A DNA stretch of 48,904 bases, from NCBI GenBank assembly GCA_945873305.1, contig CAMCCX010000010.1, positions 1 to 48,904 on the forward strand, written 5' to 3'. The translations under genes were made by a program, and so were the position numbers. Under the pieces are notes generated by a model. That model saw only the letters and a list, made by a program, of their open reading frames with translations, ran no database searches and had not been told where the DNA came from. This DNA comes from Akkermansia muciniphila (lineage in GTDB: Bacteria > Verrucomicrobiota > Verrucomicrobiia > Verrucomicrobiales > Akkermansiaceae). Of the stretch, positions 37,382 to 44,616 are shown piece after piece (the first letter of the stretch is position 1; each line of letters opens with the position of its first letter).

Positions 37382-38653
37382 TCATTTCGCTCTGCGCCCC
37401 GACACATTGCCTGTGAAAACCGGAATGGCAACCTTCAGAAGCAAAGTATAAACGATCAGCCCCGCGGCCCAGATGCCGGCCATGATTTTCCACTCGGCAG
37501 CGCTCGGGATGTATTCGACCCACTCGTGCAAAGTCGATGGCACGAAACCAGGAATGATCAGACCCATCCCTTTTTCAATCCAGATTCCCACGAATGCGAG
37601 CACGCAAGCCACGTCGAGAACCTTGAGATGCTCGTGCACCTTGGGACGCATCAACAGCACGGCGGCGGTGACCATAAAGGCCAGCGAGACCCAGGTCCAC
37701 GGAACCAGCGCGTTCAGATCGCCATGACCGAAGAACAGATACCTTATGGCTGTGGAATGCGCGCCGCCGGTATAGAGAGCGGTGAAAACCTCCGAACCCA
37801 ACATGAGAAGGTCGATCAGAATGGTGATCCGCATGATCGCGACCAAGGTCTGGATCGAGCCCGGGCCGACCTTCATCTGGGTCATGCGGCGGATCAACTG
37901 CAGCACCACGATGATGAACGCAGGTCCGGCGACAAATGCGGAGGTGAGGAAACGCGGCGCCATTAACGCGGTATTCCAGAACGGGCGACCACCGAGCCCG
38001 CAGTAGAGGAACGCGGTCACCGTATGGATCGAAATCGCCCAAGCGATGCTCAGGAACACAAATGGCACATACCAGCGCCTGTCCGGAGTCTCCCCGAGGA
38101 AGCGTTTGTAGAGCATGTAACCGCAAATGTGAAGATTGAGTAACAGGTAGCCGTTCAGCACGATCACGTCCCAAGTGAGCATCGAGATCGGCCAATTAAA
38201 TTTCCCGATGAACGGCATCATGTGCCAGAAGCGATCGGGGCGGCCAAGGTCCGCGACGACGAACATCAGACACATCACGATCGAGGCGATGGCAAGCAAT
38301 TCGCCAATGATGACGGTGTCGTGCATGTCATTGTCGTGATAGATGTATGCGGGAATCACCATCATCACGCCCCCGGCGGCGAGGCCGACAAGAAAGGTGA
38401 AGTTCGCGATGTAGAGCCCCCATGATACATGGTCGGTCATCGCGGTGACGACCATTCCTTGCGCGACCTGCGTGGCCCAAGCGTGAGCACCGACGAGAAA
38501 AACGCAGCTCAAGACGAACATCCACACGTAAAACGTCCAGGTTCCCTCGGTCGCAAGCCGTAAGGCGAGGCGAAGGAATTTCAAATAACTCGTGGCGTGA
38601 AACTTCGCGTTGTGAGGATTTTCAGCTTTGGTAATCGTGGAATTCATGGGCAT
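37382..38653 (-). CDS. NrfD/PsrC-type membrane quinol dehydrogenase subunit
   Basis: The 423-residue protein has about ten membrane helices and family features of NrfD/PsrC/DsrP proteins, which oxidise quinol or reduce quinone and pass electrons to a partner ferredoxin. It includes a Gly-Arg-Pro-Asp-Arg-Phe-Trp motif after helix 3 and a Trp-Ala-Ile-Ser-Ile-His-Thr-Val-Thr-Ala-Phe stretch. It stands in an operon between a four-cluster Fe-S protein and a TauE/SafE permease, divergent from napDA. In known complexes the pair NrfC/NrfD serves a cytochrome or molybdoenzyme. Here NapA, whose napC is missing, is the likely acceptor. An ATG two codons downstream (38647) is also possible as the start. 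Confidence 0.92.
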   Translation of the reverse strand: MPMNSTITKAENPHNAKFHATSYLKFLRLALRLATEGTWTFYVWMFVLSCVFLVGAHAWATQVAQGMVVTAMTDHVSWGLYIANFTFLVGLAAGGVMMVIPAYIYHDNDMHDTVIIGELLAIASIVMCLMFVVADLGRPDRFWHMMPFIGKFNWPISMLTWDVIVLNGYLLLNLHICGYMLYKRFLGETPDRRWYVPFVFLSIAWAISIHTVTAFLYCGLGGRPFWNTALMAPRFLTSAFVAGPAFIIVVLQLIRRMTQMKVGPGSIQTLVAIMRITILIDLLMLGSEVFTALYTGGAHSTAIRYLFFGHGDLNALVPWTWVSLAFMVTAAVLLMRPKVHEHLKVLDVACVLAFVGIWIEKGMGLIIPGFVPSTLHEWVEYIPSAAEWKIMAGIWAAGLIVYTLLLKVAIPVFTGNVSGRRAK

Positions 38654-38659
38654 ACGGTG

Positions 38660-39631
38660 TCACTCGTCAAAGAAGTAGAAGAAGCTAGGGCGGGTTCCCA
38701 ATTCCTCCTTGAGGACGAAGACGCGCTTGTTATCGATGACCTTGCGGATTTCCGAATCGGGATCTAGCAAGTTGCCGAAAACGCGCGCGCCGGTCGGGCA
38801 GGCCTCGAGGCAGGCCGGCATTTTGCCCTCCCGCGTGCGGTGCAGGCAGAAGGTGCATTTCTCCATCACTCCCTGCGGTCGGATGCGATTGCTGAGGTAG
38901 GATTGTTTCGGGTTGATTTCCGCCTTGGGAATCACCGGCTTGGTCCAGTTGAAACGGCGGGCGTGGTAGGGACAAGCCGCCTCGCAGTAACGGCAGCCGA
39001 TGCACCAGTTATAGTCAACGACCACGATGCCGTCGTCCTCTTTCCAGGTAGCTTCCACCGGGCAGACATCGACGCAGGGCGGATTGTCGCACTGCTGGCA
39101 TTGCACCGGCATGTAGAACTTGTCCGGGTGCGGCACGGGATGGTCGTAATGGGCGTTGCCGTGCTCGATGTCCATCGAGCCCTTCTGCATTTCCAGGACG
39201 CGGATATAGCTGTTATTCGTCGCGCGGTCGTGGTTGTTTTCGTGGTGGCAGGCCTCGGCACAGCGTCGGCAGCCGATGCAGACGCTCAGATTGAGCGCGT
39301 AGCCGAATTTCACTCCCTTCTGCGGGCGGTGGTCGCTGATGGTGACATCCGCGCCGTAGTTCTTCTTCGCGTCCTGCTCCAGACGTTTCATCACGGCGGC
39401 GAGTTGCTCCTTGTCCAGCTCGCGGTAATGCTGCTGGAGGAACTCATCGACCGATAGATTCTCGCGGCTCCAGTTGACGATCGGCGAAATGGCCTTGGCG
39501 AAAGCGGCCGCGCCGAGGGTGACGCCCGCGGCTTTGAGCAGGTTGCGCCGGGTGGCATCGGCCTGGCCACCGGGATCCGAATGACATCCGCAACCGCTAC
39601 CGCAGCCGCCACTTGTTGGTTGGTTTTCCAT
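38660..39631 (-). CDS. Tat-exported 4Fe-4S electron-transfer protein (NrfC/DsrO-like)
   Basis: The 323-residue protein carries a twin-arginine signal (Arg28-Arg29, Thr-Arg-Arg-Asn-Leu-Leu-Lys) and four cysteine clusters of the dimeric ferredoxin family: Cys-Ile-Gly-Cys-Arg-Arg-Cys, Cys-Gln-Gln-Cys with Cys-Val-Asp-Val-Cys-Pro, Cys-Ile-Gly-Cys-Arg-Tyr-Cys, and Cys-Thr-Phe-Cys. It should bind four [4Fe-4S] clusters on the periplasmic side and take electrons from the NrfD-like protein. Before the arginine pair lies an unusual Cys-Gly-Ser-Gly-Cys-Gly-Cys leader, which would be removed with the signal. It starts 18 bases after the cytochrome gene and ends six bases before the NrfD-like gene. Confidence 0.93.
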   Translation of the reverse strand: MENQPTSGGCGSGCGCHSDPGGQADATRRNLLKAAGVTLGAAAFAKAISPIVNWSRENLSVDEFLQQHYRELDKEQLAAVMKRLEQDAKKNYGADVTISDHRPQKGVKFGYALNLSVCIGCRRCAEACHHENNHDRATNNSYIRVLEMQKGSMDIEHGNAHYDHPVPHPDKFYMPVQCQQCDNPPCVDVCPVEATWKEDDGIVVVDYNWCIGCRYCEAACPYHARRFNWTKPVIPKAEINPKQSYLSNRIRPQGVMEKCTFCLHRTREGKMPACLEACPTGARVFGNLLDPDSEIRKVIDNKRVFVLKEELGTRPSFFYFFDE

Positions 39632-39649: not shown

Positions 39650-40306
39650 TCAGTGGGATTTCTCTCCGTCTGCCGATGGAATCGCCTCGCCGATGACCGG
39701 CTTGGGCGGAAACACCGGCATGACAAGTGGATACTTGGGATGGTGTGGATCGTGACAATCCGTGCAATGGTTCCGCTCGCGGGGTCCCTGCTTCAGGTCC
39801 CAGTGGCCGGTCATGCCACCGTGGCTGCCATTTTGATAGTCCCGGTATTGGGGGCCGTGGCACTGGGCGCAGAGTTGCATGCTTTCGGAGAAATCCAGCG
39901 GCCGCCCGTCGGCGCGTTTCAAGGTGTTATAATCCTCGTGATTGTGGCAGCTCAGGCAGGTTTGACCACCGTGCTGAGTCTTCAATCCCTGATGGAATTC
40001 CTTCAACGACTCACCGCTGTTGGCGTTGAAATTCGGGTCGCGGGTATCATGACACGTGGCGCACGCGACCATCACCGCTTGGCCGTGAGAGTCCTTTTTC
40101 CCCGTGTCCACCAACGCCACGCCGCCCGGTTTCCGGATCACTACAGGATGAGTGAAATCACCTGGCTTCTTGTCGGAAAATGCGCGTCCCGGCCGGTCGC
40201 GGTTCCGCTGCAACCATGGGATCGCCAAGGCTCCCATGAAAAAAACGGCGATTACGGCAATCACTCCGAAAAACATCCATCTTCCAAGTCGGGTTCCTGA
40301 TGTCAT
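39650..40306 (-). CDS. Membrane-anchored tetraheme cytochrome c
   Basis: The 218-residue protein has one N-terminal membrane helix (about residues 11-30) and four Cys-x-x-Cys-His haem sites at 82-86, 117-121, 146-150 and 181-185. It contains many extra His residues that could be distal ligands. It is the first gene of the minus-strand operon with the Fe-S and NrfD-like genes. Its role is probably to carry electrons in the periplasm between that quinol-oxidising pair and the NapB-like cytochrome (inference). It does not show the NapC/NirT layout, so it is not a simple NapC replacement by homology. It is divergent from napD. Confidence 0.9.
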   Translation of the reverse strand: MTSGTRLGRWMFFGVIAVIAVFFMGALAIPWLQRNRDRPGRAFSDKKPGDFTHPVVIRKPGGVALVDTGKKDSHGQAVMVACATCHDTRDPNFNANSGESLKEFHQGLKTQHGGQTCLSCHNHEDYNTLKRADGRPLDFSESMQLCAQCHGPQYRDYQNGSHGGMTGHWDLKQGPRERNHCTDCHDPHHPKYPLVMPVFPPKPVIGEAIPSADGEKSH

Positions 40307-40458: not shown

Positions 40459-40716
40459 ATGCCTGTGAACGGACTTCTCCTCACTCTATCAAACAACGCC
40501 GAGTTGGCGGACACCGCGCGATCCACAATCGCCCGACGCCAGGAGGTTTCGTTAGGCGAAGCGAGCGGACATTGGCAACCCCTCGCCGTCGATACGCCCG
40601 ACGTGGGGGCATCTCACGATTTCCACGAATGGCTCGAAGCGCTTCCCGGCGTCGAGCAGGTCGATGTGATCTACGTCGGCTTTGACGAACCCTCTCCCAT
40701 CCCAACCGCGCCATGA
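40459..40716 (+). CDS. napD: NapD-like maturation chaperone of NapA
   Basis: The 85-residue protein has the NapD layout: an N-terminal strand (Val-Asn-Gly-Leu-Leu-Leu-Thr), a helix, a second strand and the closing Leu-Pro-Gly-Val-Glu-Gln-Val-Asp-Val-Ile-Tyr, as in the ferredoxin-like NapD fold. NapD binds the twin-arginine signal of NapA and holds back export until the cofactor is inserted. The ATG at 40459 is set by an AAGGAA site eight bases upstream; an open frame goes back to 40300. The stop overlaps the napA start by four bases (ATGA), consistent with coupling. Confidence 0.85.
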   Translation: MPVNGLLLTLSNNAELADTARSTIARRQEVSLGEASGHWQPLAVDTPDVGASHDFHEWLEALPGVEQVDVIYVGFDEPSPIPTAP

Positions 40717-43103
40717 ATCTCATCGAACGCCGCACCTTCCTCAAAACCTCCGCTCTCGCCGCCGCCAGCGCCGCCGCAGTCGCCCGGGCCCAGTCCCCCG
40801 CCTTGCCGACTGCGCCAGCGGATGGCATTAAATGGGACAAAGCCCCGTGCCGGTTTTGCGGCACCGGATGCCACGTCAAGGTCGGCGTGAAAGAAGGAAA
40901 AGTCGTCGCCATCGCCGGACATCCCGACGCCGCTGTCAACAAAGGCCTGCTTTGCGTGAAGGGCTATCACGTCGGCGGCATTCTTTACGGCAAGGATCGC
41001 CTCACCGACCCGATGCTCCGCCGAAACGGAGTCATGGAGAAAATTTCCTGGGAAGAAGCCATCGATATCGCCGCTCGGCGCATCATGAAGAACCCGCCGG
41101 GCTTCGGCTTCTACACCTCCGGCCAATCGACGATCCCGGAAGGTTACGCCGCCACCAAGTTCATGAAGGGCGGCCTCTCCAACAACCACACCGAGCCTAA
41201 CGCCCGCCTCTGCATGGCTTCCGCCGTCACCGGCTACATCTCGACTTACGGCGTGGACGAGCCCGCCGGTTGTTATGACGATCTCGACGCCTGCAACGTC
41301 CTTCTCATGTGGGGCAATAACATGGCGGAAATGCACCCGGTGCTGTTTTCCCGCATCCTCGACCGCCGGGAACGCGGGCAAAAAGTCACTATCATCGACC
41401 TAGGCACCCGCCGCACCCGCACTTCGGAGTTTGCCGATCACTACTTCGAATTCCGGCCGCAGACCGACCTCGCCATCGCCAACTGCATCGCCCAGCAGCT
41501 TGTCGAGCGCGGCGCATGGGATAAGAAATTCGTGGAAAACCATTGCGCCTTCCGCGCCGACGCTGACATCGCGAAACCCGACCTCATGGGTGTGGCGATT
41601 TCCTTCGACGAGTTCAAGAAACGGATCGCCGAATACACGCCGGAATACGTCAGCGGACTTTCCGGCCTGTCGGTGGAGCAACTGAGAATGTTAGGCGGCC
41701 TGTTCGCCGATCCGAACATCCGCATCACCTCCACCTGGTGCATGGGCATGAACCAGCACACCCGCGGCACGGCGATCAACCGGCTGGTGCACGGCATCCA
41801 CCTGCTCAGCGGCCACTTCGGCAAACCCGGCGACGCCCCCACCTCGCTAACAGGCCAGCCCTCCGCCTGCGGCACCGCCCGCGAGGTCGGCACGCTCTGC
41901 CACACGCTTCCCGGCGGACGGCTCGTCGCCAATGCAAAGCACCGCGAGCAGTGTGAGAAGTATTGGAACCTTCCCGCCAGCCGGATCAAGGACACCATCG
42001 GCTATCACACGGTGTTGTTGTTTGAGAAATTCTGCACGCCCAAGGACAAGGGCGGCGACATCGACACCATCATGGTCCAAGTGACCAACCCCGGCCAAAC
42101 GCTGCCAAACCTCAAGAAGCTCTACACCACGAAAACCGGACTCGAAGACAAGTTCCTCATTGTTTCCGATGTCTATCCGACCGCTTCCACCGAGATCGCG
42201 GACTTGGTTCTACCTGCCGCGATGTGGGTGGAAAAAAACGGTGCTTATGGAAATTCAGAACGCCGCACGCAGCAATGGTTCAAAATGGTCCAGCCGCCCG
42301 GCCAGGCGCGCGAGGACGTCTGGATGACCATCGCCATCGCCCGCCGGATGTTCGAACTCGGCCATCCCGGCATGAAGGACAAGGACGGCAAATTCATCTT
42401 CAGCTTCAAAGATGGCGCCGGCAATGAAGTGCCCGTCTGGGACTACGCCCATTTCCATGACATCAATGCCGACCGCGTGCTTTACGAGGAATACCGCCCG
42501 CTGACCCACATCAAACACAAGCACGTCGCGCCGTATGACGAGCTCGTCAAAGCCACTGGCCTGCGCTGGCCAGTCGTCGAGCAAGCGGACGGCTCCTATA
42601 AGGAAACGCGCTACCGCTTCGTCGAAGGCGAGGATCCATTCGTCGAAAAGGGCAAGGGCATCGATTTCTATCACTCCACCACCGAGAACGGCCGCGCCCA
42701 AATCTGGTTCTGCCCGTTTGAGCGCCATCCGGAGGAACCCGACACCGAATACCCGTTCTGGCTTTGCACCGGCCGTGTCGTCGAGCACTGGCACAGCGGC
42801 ACCATGACCATGCGCGTGCCCCAGCTCCGCGGAGCCATGCCCAACGCCTACTGCGAAGTTCACCCGGATGATGCCGCGGCTGCGGGCATCAGCAACGGCA
42901 GCGACATCATCGTCTCCACCCGCCGGGGGGAAATCACGCTAACCGCATGGATCAACGGCCGCGGCCGGCCACCGAAGGGATCCTTGTTCGTGCCGTTCTT
43001 CGACGAAAAGCGCCTGATCAACAACATCACTTTGGATGCCTACTGCCCGATCTCCAAGGAGCCGGATTACAAAAAGTGTGCCGCCCGGATTCGTAAAGCC
43101 TAA
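40713..43103 (+). CDS. napA: Periplasmic nitrate reductase catalytic subunit NapA
   Basis: NapA reduces nitrate to nitrite in the periplasm using a Mo-bis-MGD cofactor and one [4Fe-4S] cluster. The 796-residue protein begins with a Tat signal (Arg6-Arg7, Arg-Arg-Thr-Phe-Leu-Lys). The cluster cysteines are Cys46, Cys49, Cys53 and Cys81. The molybdenum ligand is Cys168 in Asn-Ala-Arg-Leu-Cys-Met-Ala-Ser, which argues against a selenocysteine-type formate dehydrogenase. The C-terminal half carries the NapA motifs Glu-His-Trp-His-Ser-Gly-Thr-Met-Thr and Val-Pro-Phe-Phe-Asp-Glu. It overlaps napD and is followed six bases later by the NapB-like gene. No napC, napG or napH is in the window. Confidence 0.96.
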   Translation: MNLIERRTFLKTSALAAASAAAVARAQSPALPTAPADGIKWDKAPCRFCGTGCHVKVGVKEGKVVAIAGHPDAAVNKGLLCVKGYHVGGILYGKDRLTDPMLRRNGVMEKISWEEAIDIAARRIMKNPPGFGFYTSGQSTIPEGYAATKFMKGGLSNNHTEPNARLCMASAVTGYISTYGVDEPAGCYDDLDACNVLLMWGNNMAEMHPVLFSRILDRRERGQKVTIIDLGTRRTRTSEFADHYFEFRPQTDLAIANCIAQQLVERGAWDKKFVENHCAFRADADIAKPDLMGVAISFDEFKKRIAEYTPEYVSGLSGLSVEQLRMLGGLFADPNIRITSTWCMGMNQHTRGTAINRLVHGIHLLSGHFGKPGDAPTSLTGQPSACGTAREVGTLCHTLPGGRLVANAKHREQCEKYWNLPASRIKDTIGYHTVLLFEKFCTPKDKGGDIDTIMVQVTNPGQTLPNLKKLYTTKTGLEDKFLIVSDVYPTASTEIADLVLPAAMWVEKNGAYGNSERRTQQWFKMVQPPGQAREDVWMTIAIARRMFELGHPGMKDKDGKFIFSFKDGAGNEVPVWDYAHFHDINADRVLYEEYRPLTHIKHKHVAPYDELVKATGLRWPVVEQADGSYKETRYRFVEGEDPFVEKGKGIDFYHSTTENGRAQIWFCPFERHPEEPDTEYPFWLCTGRVVEHWHSGTMTMRVPQLRGAMPNAYCEVHPDDAAAAGISNGSDIIVSTRRGEITLTAWINGRGRPPKGSLFVPFFDEKRLINNITLDAYCPISKEPDYKKCAARIRKA

Positions 43104-43109
43104 CTGACA

Positions 43110-43949
43110 ATGGACAGTCACGACATCGAAAGCTACTTCCGCCAGCACCGCAAGACGCTCGCGGTGGTATTCCTGATAGTTTGCATGTTGGCCGTTTCCG
43201 GTTTTTTCATGGGCATGCGCCAGACCGAGCGCCAGGTGACGCGCAACCGACTTCCGGCTGCCGGTAAACACGAGGTTTCCTCACAGGAGCAGGAAATCCC
43301 ATCCGCGCCCAAGTATAAGGAGATCAGCAATGCCGAGTGGCTCGCCAACCGCGACTGGAAATTCACTCTAGCGGACCTGCCGCGTGCGGTGGCCCCGTCA
43401 GCCGGCCAAACCGCCGCCACTCCTGCGGAAACCGCGACCGCCATCGAGCGCCGGAAATCACTCCGCGCCTATGACGGAGCGCCGCCCGTGATCCCCCACG
43501 CCATCGACACCCTCAAGGCATCCGCCTGTAACTCCTGTCACGGCGAAGACAGCAACCTCGTCATCGGCGGCAAGCGTCCCGCGGAAATCAGCCACCCGTG
43601 GATTACCAATTGCACTTCTTGCCACGTCCCTGCAGACGGCCTGCGGCAACTCACCGCCCCGGCGGAAACCAGGTTAGTCGTTGGAAATTCCTTTCTCGGA
43701 AAATCATCCGCCGGCCACGGCCCGCGGGCTTATGGCACCGCGCCGCCCACCATGCCGCACGCCGTTTGGATGCGCCAGAACTGCATGGCCTGCCACGGTC
43801 CGGGGCGGGAACAAGCCATCCGCACCTCCCACCCGGAGCGCCAGAACTGCCTCCAGTGCCACGCGCCTAACGCATTATTCGACAACCGGGAAACCTACCT
43901 CACCAATCCCAAGCCGCCCTTGGGTCCTCCGCTTCTCGAAAAGCAATGA
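43110..43949 (+). CDS. napB: Membrane-anchored tetraheme NapB-like cytochrome
   Basis: The 279-residue protein has one membrane helix (about 17-37). A NapB-like module follows with Ala-Tyr-Asp-Gly-Ala-Pro-Pro-Val-Ile-Pro-His, haem sites at 140-144 and 168-172, and the closing Val-Gly-Asn-Ser-Phe. Canonical NapB ends there with two haems. This protein continues with a second, similar module that has its own Ala-Pro-Pro-Thr-Met-Pro-His at 211-217 and haem sites at 225-229 and 247-251. It is therefore an anchored, partly duplicated NapB with four haems, expected to feed electrons to NapA. It overlaps the NapF-like gene by four bases. Confidence 0.9.
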   Translation: MDSHDIESYFRQHRKTLAVVFLIVCMLAVSGFFMGMRQTERQVTRNRLPAAGKHEVSSQEQEIPSAPKYKEISNAEWLANRDWKFTLADLPRAVAPSAGQTAATPAETATAIERRKSLRAYDGAPPVIPHAIDTLKASACNSCHGEDSNLVIGGKRPAEISHPWITNCTSCHVPADGLRQLTAPAETRLVVGNSFLGKSSAGHGPRAYGTAPPTMPHAVWMRQNCMACHGPGREQAIRTSHPERQNCLQCHAPNALFDNRETYLTNPKPPLGPPLLEKQ

Positions 43950-44308
43950 GCTCCATCAGTCGTCGCGATCTTTTCCGTTCCATGTTCGGACGCCGGGGGG
44001 CACCGGCACCGGCAGCGCCAGTTGTTCGGGAAGCTCCCGTCATCGAAGAGCCGCCTCCGCTGGCGCTCATTCTCGACCGTTTCTGCCTGGCCTATCAAGG
44101 CTCGTTCTGTTCGGTCTGTTCCGAGCGCTGCCCGGCGGGCGGAGCCATCACGGTCGAGCAAGGAAAGCCGCGCGTGAATCCGGATTTCTGCACCGGCTGC
44201 AAGATCTGCCACGACGTCTGCCCCGCTCCGAAAAACGCCGTTTTCCTGGTCTCCCGCAAACCCCGCCAAGGCATGGTCGTGCGCCCGACCGACCCCACTC
44301 CCACATGA
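43946..44308 (+). CDS. napF: NapF-like 4Fe-4S ferredoxin
   Basis: The 120-residue protein begins with Ser-Arg-Arg-Asp-Leu-Phe-Arg, as many NapF proteins do. It carries two cluster motifs: Cys47, Cys55, Cys58 and Cys62, then Cys82, Cys85, Cys88 and Cys92. NapF is a cytoplasmic iron-sulfur protein thought to help mature NapA before export; most NapF proteins have more clusters than this one. A Pro/Ala-rich linker separates the start from the clusters. It overlaps both neighbours by four bases, so it belongs to the nap operon. Confidence 0.8.
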   Translation: MSSISRRDLFRSMFGRRGAPAPAAPVVREAPVIEEPPPLALILDRFCLAYQGSFCSVCSERCPAGGAITVEQGKPRVNPDFCTGCKICHDVCPAPKNAVFLVSRKPRQGMVVRPTDPTPT

Positions 44309-44616
44309 GTCATCCCGCCCCTCTACCCGATCTCCATCAGGCTGAGCTCGACGAAGCCACGATCCGCCAGCTTTTCGATGATGTCCGTGACCACACCGAG
44401 CTCATGGAAGTCATCCCGAAGCACGCGGCCTCCGGCTATGTCCCGGAGATCGCCGCCATCACCCTCACGGAAGGACTCGGCCTCTTGTTAGCCGGCGGCG
44501 TCCGCGCGCTTCAGCTCCGCTACCGACACGACGGCACGGTCTGGTGGGACACGCTGATGCCCACGCCGCACGGCACCTTCCGGATCGTCCGCATTCAACA
44601 CGATTTCCCGGAATGA
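44305..44616 (+). CDS. Small nap-operon protein of unknown function (103 aa)
   Basis: I do not recognise this family. The start codon at 44305 overlaps the napF-like stop by four bases (ATGA), which fixes the start and ties the gene to the nap operon. The protein is acidic in its first 40 residues and predicted helical there. A Gly-Leu-Leu-Leu-Ala-Gly-Gly turn follows, then two strands with Leu-Arg-Tyr-Arg-His and Trp-Trp-Asp-Thr-Leu-Met. It has no signal peptide or metal motif, so a cytosolic accessory role in Nap assembly is one possibility. Confidence 0.6.
   Translation: MSHPAPLPDLHQAELDEATIRQLFDDVRDHTELMEVIPKHAASGYVPEIAAITLTEGLGLLLAGGVRALQLRYRHDGTVWWDTLMPTPHGTFRIVRIQHDFPE

Follow-up and report, generated by a model that had tools for sequence, protein, structure and literature searches.

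Why is napA in this stretch of DNA followed by the gene of a NapB-like cytochrome that has four haem sites and a membrane helix, and what part would such a protein play in electron transfer to nitrate? The window, by which we mean the whole stretch of 48,904 nucleotides analysed here, encodes at 43110..43949 (+ strand) a protein of 279 amino acids, a tetrahaem, membrane-anchored cytochrome of the NapB family that we name NapB4. An earlier note on this DNA had taken it for an internally duplicated NapB that lengthens the electron wire to NapA and perhaps removes the need for NapC. The reading that we hold to be probable is that NapB4 is a duplicated, membrane-tethered NapB that regularly accompanies a NapA of a distinct clade and relays electrons to it from a module of DsrP, DsrO and a four-haem cytochrome.

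The NapB4 gene and protein

The open reading frame (ORF) of NapB4 is uninterrupted, is separated by 6 nt from the stop of napA and shares an overlap with the ORF that follows, the gene of a small NapF-like ferredoxin (43946..44308, +). An N-terminal membrane helix (residues 14-46; 43149..43247, +) and four CxxCH sites, as listed in the earlier note, are both present in the 279-aa frame. A linker of about 70 residues lies between the helix and the haem modules, and the four CxxCH motifs begin at residues 140, 168, 225 and 247 (43527..43541, 43611..43625, 43782..43796 and 43848..43862, all +). They form two modules with two haem sites each, both of the pattern PPxxPH...CxxCH...HP...CxxCH. The first (residues 119-175; 43464..43634, +) reads RAYDGAPPVIPH...CNSCH...SHP...CTSCH, and the second (residues 206-254; 43725..43871, +) reads RAYGTAPPTMPH...CMACH...SHP...CLQCH. 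The PPTMPH claimed for the second half is there, ending with H217 and followed by the two further haem sites. A complete NapB pattern had been claimed for the first half; PPVIPH, ending with H130, and two haem sites were indeed found, but the pattern is not complete, since the loop between the haems is shorter and the VGNSF tail (191-195) is poorly kept. Of this tail, F-x-G alone is invariant in a 20-row alignment (A1), and in a 25-row alignment (A2) F-x-G is not invariant either.

The 25 homologues in alignment A2 share 25 invariant columns, more than expected by chance. Among these columns are the cysteines and the histidine of each of the four CxxCH motifs and four histidines outside them, giving a total of eight presumed haem-ligand histidines.

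Whole NapB4 scores 44.8 bits against the Pfam NapB model (PF03892) and thus passes the cut-off of 25.1. Searched separately, the first module alone passes it with 29.9 bits, and the second falls short with 21.9 bits (E 2e-4). Whole NapB4 also lies above the cut-offs of three general multihaem models, though more narrowly: Cytochrom_c3_2 (32.2 bits, cut-off 25), Cytochrome_C7 (26.5, cut-off 24.8) and Paired_CXXCH_1 (21.3, cut-off 20.6). Against the NCBI equivalog for diheme NapB, NF008609, it reaches 17.7 bits, far from the cut-off of 230. When a profile of 20 relatives was searched against the PDB, three solved NapBs ranked first (3ml1, 1ogy and 1jni; E 7e-7 to 1e-5), with the multihaem UndA behind them (E 6e-4). 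Structure prediction with AlphaFold2 gave a pLDDT of 52 for full NapB4 with 20 sequences (A1), and a pLDDT of 61 with a pTM of 0.40 for the haem domain alone (alignment A3); the sole Foldseek match of this poor haem-domain model was the NapB 1ogy_B, which was not significant (E 0.35, probability 0.20, rmsd 15.6). NapB4 is a new variant of NapB and no canonical member, as it is neither diheme nor soluble. Our literature searches, from which most subscription papers were out of reach, found no earlier description of a tetrahaem NapB, and the phrase "Tetraheme NapB", in that spelling, was absent from the literature searched.

Internal duplication

That NapB4 goes back to an internal duplication of NapB, as had been proposed, is well supported by profile comparisons of its modules. 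Module profiles were built from 74 distinct NapB4 relatives and from 19 distinct diheme NapBs, and two-haem windows cut from the neighbouring four-haem cytochrome served as controls. Excision of the modules by their PPxxPH and CxxCH motifs favours the comparison of half with half, whereas the Pfam result is independent of it; under this motif rule, one distinct relative (L102/L135, with PATIPH) was left out. In hhalign, the first half scores 107.7 against the second, and against diheme NapB the scores are 93.7 for the first half and 72.9 for the second. The halves are thus closer to each other than either is to diheme NapB, and all of these values are far above those of the control windows, which score 24.9-41.7 against the module profiles; since the hhalign probabilities of some controls exceed 90% (up to 96%), only the gap in score carries weight. 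Within single proteins, the alignment of the two halves was compared with shuffles in which the haem Cys and His stay in place; the median Z was 7.8, with 3.9 as the lowest value, and the observed score was reached by none of 7400 such shuffles.

In a tree of the modules, built on 55 columns from 57 of the 74 proteins, the first halves (support 93/89), the second halves (76/58) and the diheme NapBs (99/96) fall into separate groups. These three groups would fit one old duplication, the group of the second halves not being firmly supported. A histidine between the two CxxCH motifs is present in all 19 diheme NapBs and in each half of all 74 NapB4 proteins. The loop between the haems, counted from Cys to Cys, has a median length of 26 residues in the first half, 22 in the second and 40 in diheme NapB; that it is shorter in both modules suggests that duplication started from an already compact unit.

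The second half could also be an unrelated diheme module of the class III or c7 type that became fused to NapB, its likeness to NapB arising from short, stereotyped multihaem motifs. The isolated second half indeed ties in Pfam (Cytochrome_C7 21.6 bits, NapB 21.9 bits), and the cut-offs of the c7 and c3 models are passed by whole NapB4. However, the NapB signature RAxxxAPPxxPH stands ahead of the first haem of the second half, and its profile scores with the first half and with diheme NapB exceed those with the control windows (32.5 and 41.7); the tree groups, including the weak second-half group, are consistent with one duplication. The earlier note had held that kinship with an unrelated cytochrome family would speak against duplication; by profile, the second half is closer to NapB, and we consider a fusion unlikely.

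Membrane anchoring

Residues 14-46 have a mean hydropathy of 2.6, and the helix is the sole stretch of NapB4 that AlphaFold2 models with high confidence (pLDDT of 91, 96 and 85 for the 10-residue blocks of residues 11-40). Positive residues before the helix suggest that the N-terminus is cytoplasmic and that the haems are periplasmic. With this long hydrophobic helix, which presumably stays uncleaved, NapB4 does not fit the description of NapB as a soluble periplasmic protein. Among 75 distinct NapB4 proteins, a clear hydrophobic helix was found by threshold in 60, a lipobox was called in nine and six were weak. Three of the nine lipobox calls are probably spurious (long form, with the cysteine inside the helix), and lipoprotein-like N-termini of three of the six weak proteins (L098, L166 and L168) were missed by the pattern. 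Of the other weak ones, two (L018 and L090) have no N-terminal helix within the open frame read, and one (L109) is just under the threshold. Membrane attachment thus seems to be general among NapB4 proteins, and in some relatives, judging from the motif call, a lipid anchor probably replaces the helix.

Partnership with NapA

The gene upstream of NapB4 encodes the catalytic subunit NapA (40713..43103, +), a protein of 796 amino acids with a TAT-like signal that scores 883 bits, just under the NapA cut-off of 904. It is preceded by a NapD-like chaperone (40459..40716, +; start codon presumed), which reaches 13.2 bits against Pfam NapD (cut-off 28) and is supported by its position and its relatives. 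In 74 of the 75 distinct NapB4 cases, napA is encoded on the strand of NapB4 and either overlaps its gene or lies no more than 900 nt away; the sole exception, L018, starts at a contig end.

In a NapA tree of 84 rows, a single branch (100% SH-aLRT) divides the 56 partners of tetrahaem NapB from the 28 of diheme NapB, so that one change explains the type of NapB. This is a quick tree with SH-aLRT values only; it leaves out L017 and L168, which are too short, and L170, which is a duplicate, and most of its sequences were obtained via NapB4 or NapB queries; only the search in the phylum of the window began from NapA. In the loci examined, a distinct clade of NapA has tetrahaem NapB as its regular partner.

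The tyrosine of a Lys-Gly-Tyr that follows the last cluster cysteine of NapA, which we take to be Tyr58, was found in 55 of the 56 tetrahaem partners and in 27 of the 28 diheme partners; the pattern missed one. In a 2026 review, NapA Tyr58 is placed 7.5 Å from the proximal haem of NapB (PMC13223375). Either half of NapB4 may dock to NapA: the first is nearer to diheme NapB by profile score, and the second is more conserved, with a mean pairwise identity among relatives of 55% (47% for the first).

Distribution

A search of genome contigs gave 36 loci, 19 of which (L002-L020) are tetrahaem and, going by the titles of the records, belong to Verrucomicrobiota, Planctomycetota and Myxococcota. Altogether, 75 distinct relatives of NapB4 come from these three phyla and one more from Bacteroidota; related genomes do share the tetrahaem form, a point that the earlier note had proposed to check. 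In the loci examined, each of the 125 six-frame ORFs that score more than 80 bits against the NapB4 profile has exactly four CxxCH motifs, and diheme NapBs reach at most 42 bits. In the Planctomycetota sample, 38 of 294 genomes match at E 1e-25 or better and 51 at E 0.001 or better; for Myxococcota the figures are 38 and 57 of 188, part of the weaker matches being diheme NapBs. Both samples contain seeds of the query alignment (G399, G400, G401; G398). Phyla that carry NapB4 are common in soils, sediments and wastewater. No NapB4 match was found in the phage records searched.

In the phylum of the window, eight of 387 genomes match in the NapB4 search. Seven of them have a tetrahaem NapB, and the eighth match looks like NrfH and is followed by an NrfA-like gene. 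A NapA search of the same 387 genomes (E 1e-100 or better) returned exactly the seven NapB4 genomes. Since three other genomes of the genus of the window are without NapB4, the trait is patchy. In the genome of the window (95% complete), NapB4 is the sole match to the NapB family, and a search for NrfA (PF02335) gave no match. Akkermansiaceae are the closest relatives of this genome.

The Bacteroidota example is the cultured Flammeovirga kamogawensis, whose 640-kb plasmid carries the gene order napD-napA-napB4-four-haem protein-4Fe4S protein-dsrP (L207). In its annotation, NapB4 is a "cytochrome c3 family protein", NapA a "molybdopterin-dependent oxidoreductase" and the quinol subunit "sulfate reduction electron transfer complex DsrMKJOP subunit DsrP"; the chaperone NapD is the only mention of nitrate reductase in the cluster. 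With such annotations, nitrate respiration could be missed and sulfur metabolism wrongly inferred. The main text of PMC8653839, consulted on nitrate physiology because of this plasmid match, does not contain the word nitrate. The window has a similar case at 37382-38653 (-), where a protein passes the DsrP cut-off for sulfate reduction inside a nitrate-reductase cluster, and automatic annotation may mislead. PMC10945688 describes NapA and NapB transcripts that go up on nitrate in the planctomycete strain ZRK32.

NapC and the likely quinol modules

Divergent from napD, the window encodes a four-haem cytochrome whose N-terminus has a hydrophobic stretch (39650..40306, -), a DsrO-like iron-sulfur protein (38660..39631, -; 197.2 bits, just under the NCBI DsrO cut-off of 200) and a membrane quinol protein of the DsrP/NrfD type (37382..38653, -; 430 bits, NCBI DsrP cut-off 350). 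This divergent layout recurs in 15 of the 19 loci L002-L020. The exceptions are L020, with the three genes on the strand of napA, L015, where a contig end stands in place of DsrP, and the short contigs L017 and L018. A further set of 40 tetrahaem-NapB neighbourhoods (L135-L174) covers part of the strong matches, fragmentary ones (e.g. G538, G562, G757, G866 and G881) having been left out. DsrP is near 30 of these 40. In 29 it is joined by DsrO and the four-haem cytochrome; the thirtieth, L157, is truncated by the end of its contig. In eight others, all from Planctomycetota (L159-L166), a cytochrome b and an octahaem cytochrome (PF13447) are encoded upstream on the strand of napA; examples are L166:3656-6305 and L160:2795-5803. 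This pair may be a quinol module or may serve to reduce nitrite. Neither module was found in the stretches read of L167 and L168, save for one DsrO-like match in L168 (103 bits, other strand). Counting both types, a likely quinol module adjoins NapB4 in the window and in 38 of the 40 neighbourhoods.

Two further observations concern the surroundings. The NapF-like gene is followed by a conserved small ORF of 103 aa (44305..44616, +) that has no NCBIfam match and is kept beside many tetrahaem-NapB clusters in three phyla. Between the nap cluster and the end of the contig (46055-48902), a regulator of the LysR type is encoded along with two proteins that resemble substrate-binding proteins, one of which weakly matches the SsuA family.

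In none of the 40 neighbourhoods is there an ORF with NapC as best match at 40 bits or more, nor a NapH match above 100 bits; weak NapH matches (70 and 61 bits) lie away from nap in L157, and weak NapG matches in L149, L154 and L157. Diheme NapB was also seen beside DsrP and DsrO, in three clusters from Myxococcota (L121, L124 and L125), and beside DsrP at contig ends in L126 and L127; a DsrOP-like module is thus neither specific to tetrahaem NapB nor does it require it. NapH exceeds 200 bits in six of the ten diheme-NapB neighbourhoods (L121-L130). The three Myxococcota clusters have NapG, NapH and diheme NapB in addition to DsrP and DsrO, that is, two likely quinol modules side by side. A different four-haem protein that also looks internally doubled is encoded at L134:7795-8661 (-), next to DsrP/DsrO and a NapA-like gene; it starts like a lipoprotein, and at E 0.001 Pfam NapB does not match it.

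Strong NapC matches are also rare in genomes that carry NapB4, whose lack of napC the earlier note had proposed to check. In 60 entries for carrier genomes (7 + 19 + 34, at least one genome being entered twice) there is one strong NapC/NirT match, of 224 bits in G704 (Myxococcota), the next best being 52.5. The protein in question, G704:C175, lies at a contig end and on a different contig from the nap genes of G704, and the NapA and NapB models found nothing in the 8.4 kb around it. Matches to PF03264 in carrier genomes were considered as possible NapC: of ten scored with NCBIfam models, six pass the NrfH cut-off and, by eye, adjoin NrfA-like ORFs, and the remaining four are larger or weaker proteins that stay under every NCBIfam cut-off. 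A complete napC elsewhere together with a diheme NapB, named beforehand as counter-evidence, is not what the genome of the window holds: its sole NapC/NirT-domain match is a 498-aa protein with six CxxCH motifs on a different contig, which reaches 31 bits where the NapC/NirT model requires 311, and 62 bits where NrfH requires 134.

Could NapB4 then be the quinol dehydrogenase itself, a functional NapC and NapB in one chain? Its membrane helix and four haem sites are NapC-like features, and no NapC was seen in its clusters; this part of the supposition that NapC is not needed stood. The single helix argues against the rest, as do the score against NapC/NirT (PF03264; 9.6 bits, E 0.93, cut-off 24.1), the likely quinol module beside 38 of the 40 clusters, and the several relatives that, by the motif call, appear to be anchored as lipoproteins without a helix. 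We regard this reading as very improbable. Absence of NapC from a Nap system is already known and not itself new: the Nap of Wolinella is reported to work independently of NapC, and napC is missing from Bacillus azotoformans (both in PMC3475470).

A proposed electron path

We propose that a single ancestral compact diheme NapB was doubled into one tetrahaem chain, which would be tethered to the inner membrane via its N-terminal helix or, in some relatives, probably by a lipid. Quinol would be oxidised by the divergently encoded module of DsrP, DsrO and four-haem cytochrome. From gene order and known family roles, electrons may then run from quinol via DsrP, DsrO and the four-haem cytochrome to NapB4, cross its four presumably bis-histidine-ligated haems, enter NapA at the [4Fe-4S] cluster and finally reach the molybdenum site, where nitrate is reduced. 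Most likely, NapB4 serves NapA as a longer electron wire.

A more far-reaching idea, which is possible but on the doubtful side, is that these clusters are a separate and widespread type of periplasmic nitrate reductase, in which the doubled and tethered NapB plugs NapA into interchangeable quinol modules, either DsrP/DsrO or cytochrome b with an octahaem cytochrome. Membrane proteins of the NrfD type, such as DsrP, have been proposed to move protons. If this is true, energy might be conserved where quinol is oxidised when this Nap reduces nitrate, in contrast to the route via NapC. In addition, NapB4 offers a clean test of how a cytochrome wire grows by duplication of modules.

Comparison with known systems

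With canonical diheme NapB (PF03892; 1ogy, 3ml1, 1jni), NapB4 shares PPxIPH, two CxxCH motifs per module with an intervening histidine, and a gene adjacent to napA. In contrast to it, NapB4 has two modules with four haem sites per chain, a shorter loop between the haems (26/22 vs 40), a membrane anchor and a NapA of a different clade.

NapM of the napCMADGH clusters of Desulfovibrio and Caldithrix is also a tetrahaem cytochrome and a proposed donor of NapA in clusters without NapB (PMC5317091), and NapB4 could be this protein under another name. However, NapB4 lies above the cut-off of the NapB family and carries two NapB signatures, and the neighbourhoods read are without napC and NapH, whereas napC and napGH form the context of NapM. 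The two are set apart here by family score, signatures and gene context, and we judge their identity to be quite improbable.

The duplicated, tethered NapB that we prefer is accompanied in the window by neighbours that resemble DsrJOP of the DsrMKJOP complex of sulfate reduction, with a match to DsrP (430 vs 350) and nearly one to DsrO (197.2 vs 200). Unlike in DsrMKJOP, the DsrP/DsrO-like module adjoins napA, in the window and in those NapB4 loci where it was found. Four types of nap operon, napEDABC, napDAGHB, napCMADGH and napAGHBFLD, are given in the 2026 review, where the words "tetraheme" and "nrfD" do not occur in the main text (PMC13223375). They share the core of NapA and NapD with the NapB4 clusters; none of the four as listed includes a DsrP/DsrO module (PMC13223375), unlike the NapB4 clusters, which would add a further Nap type to these four.
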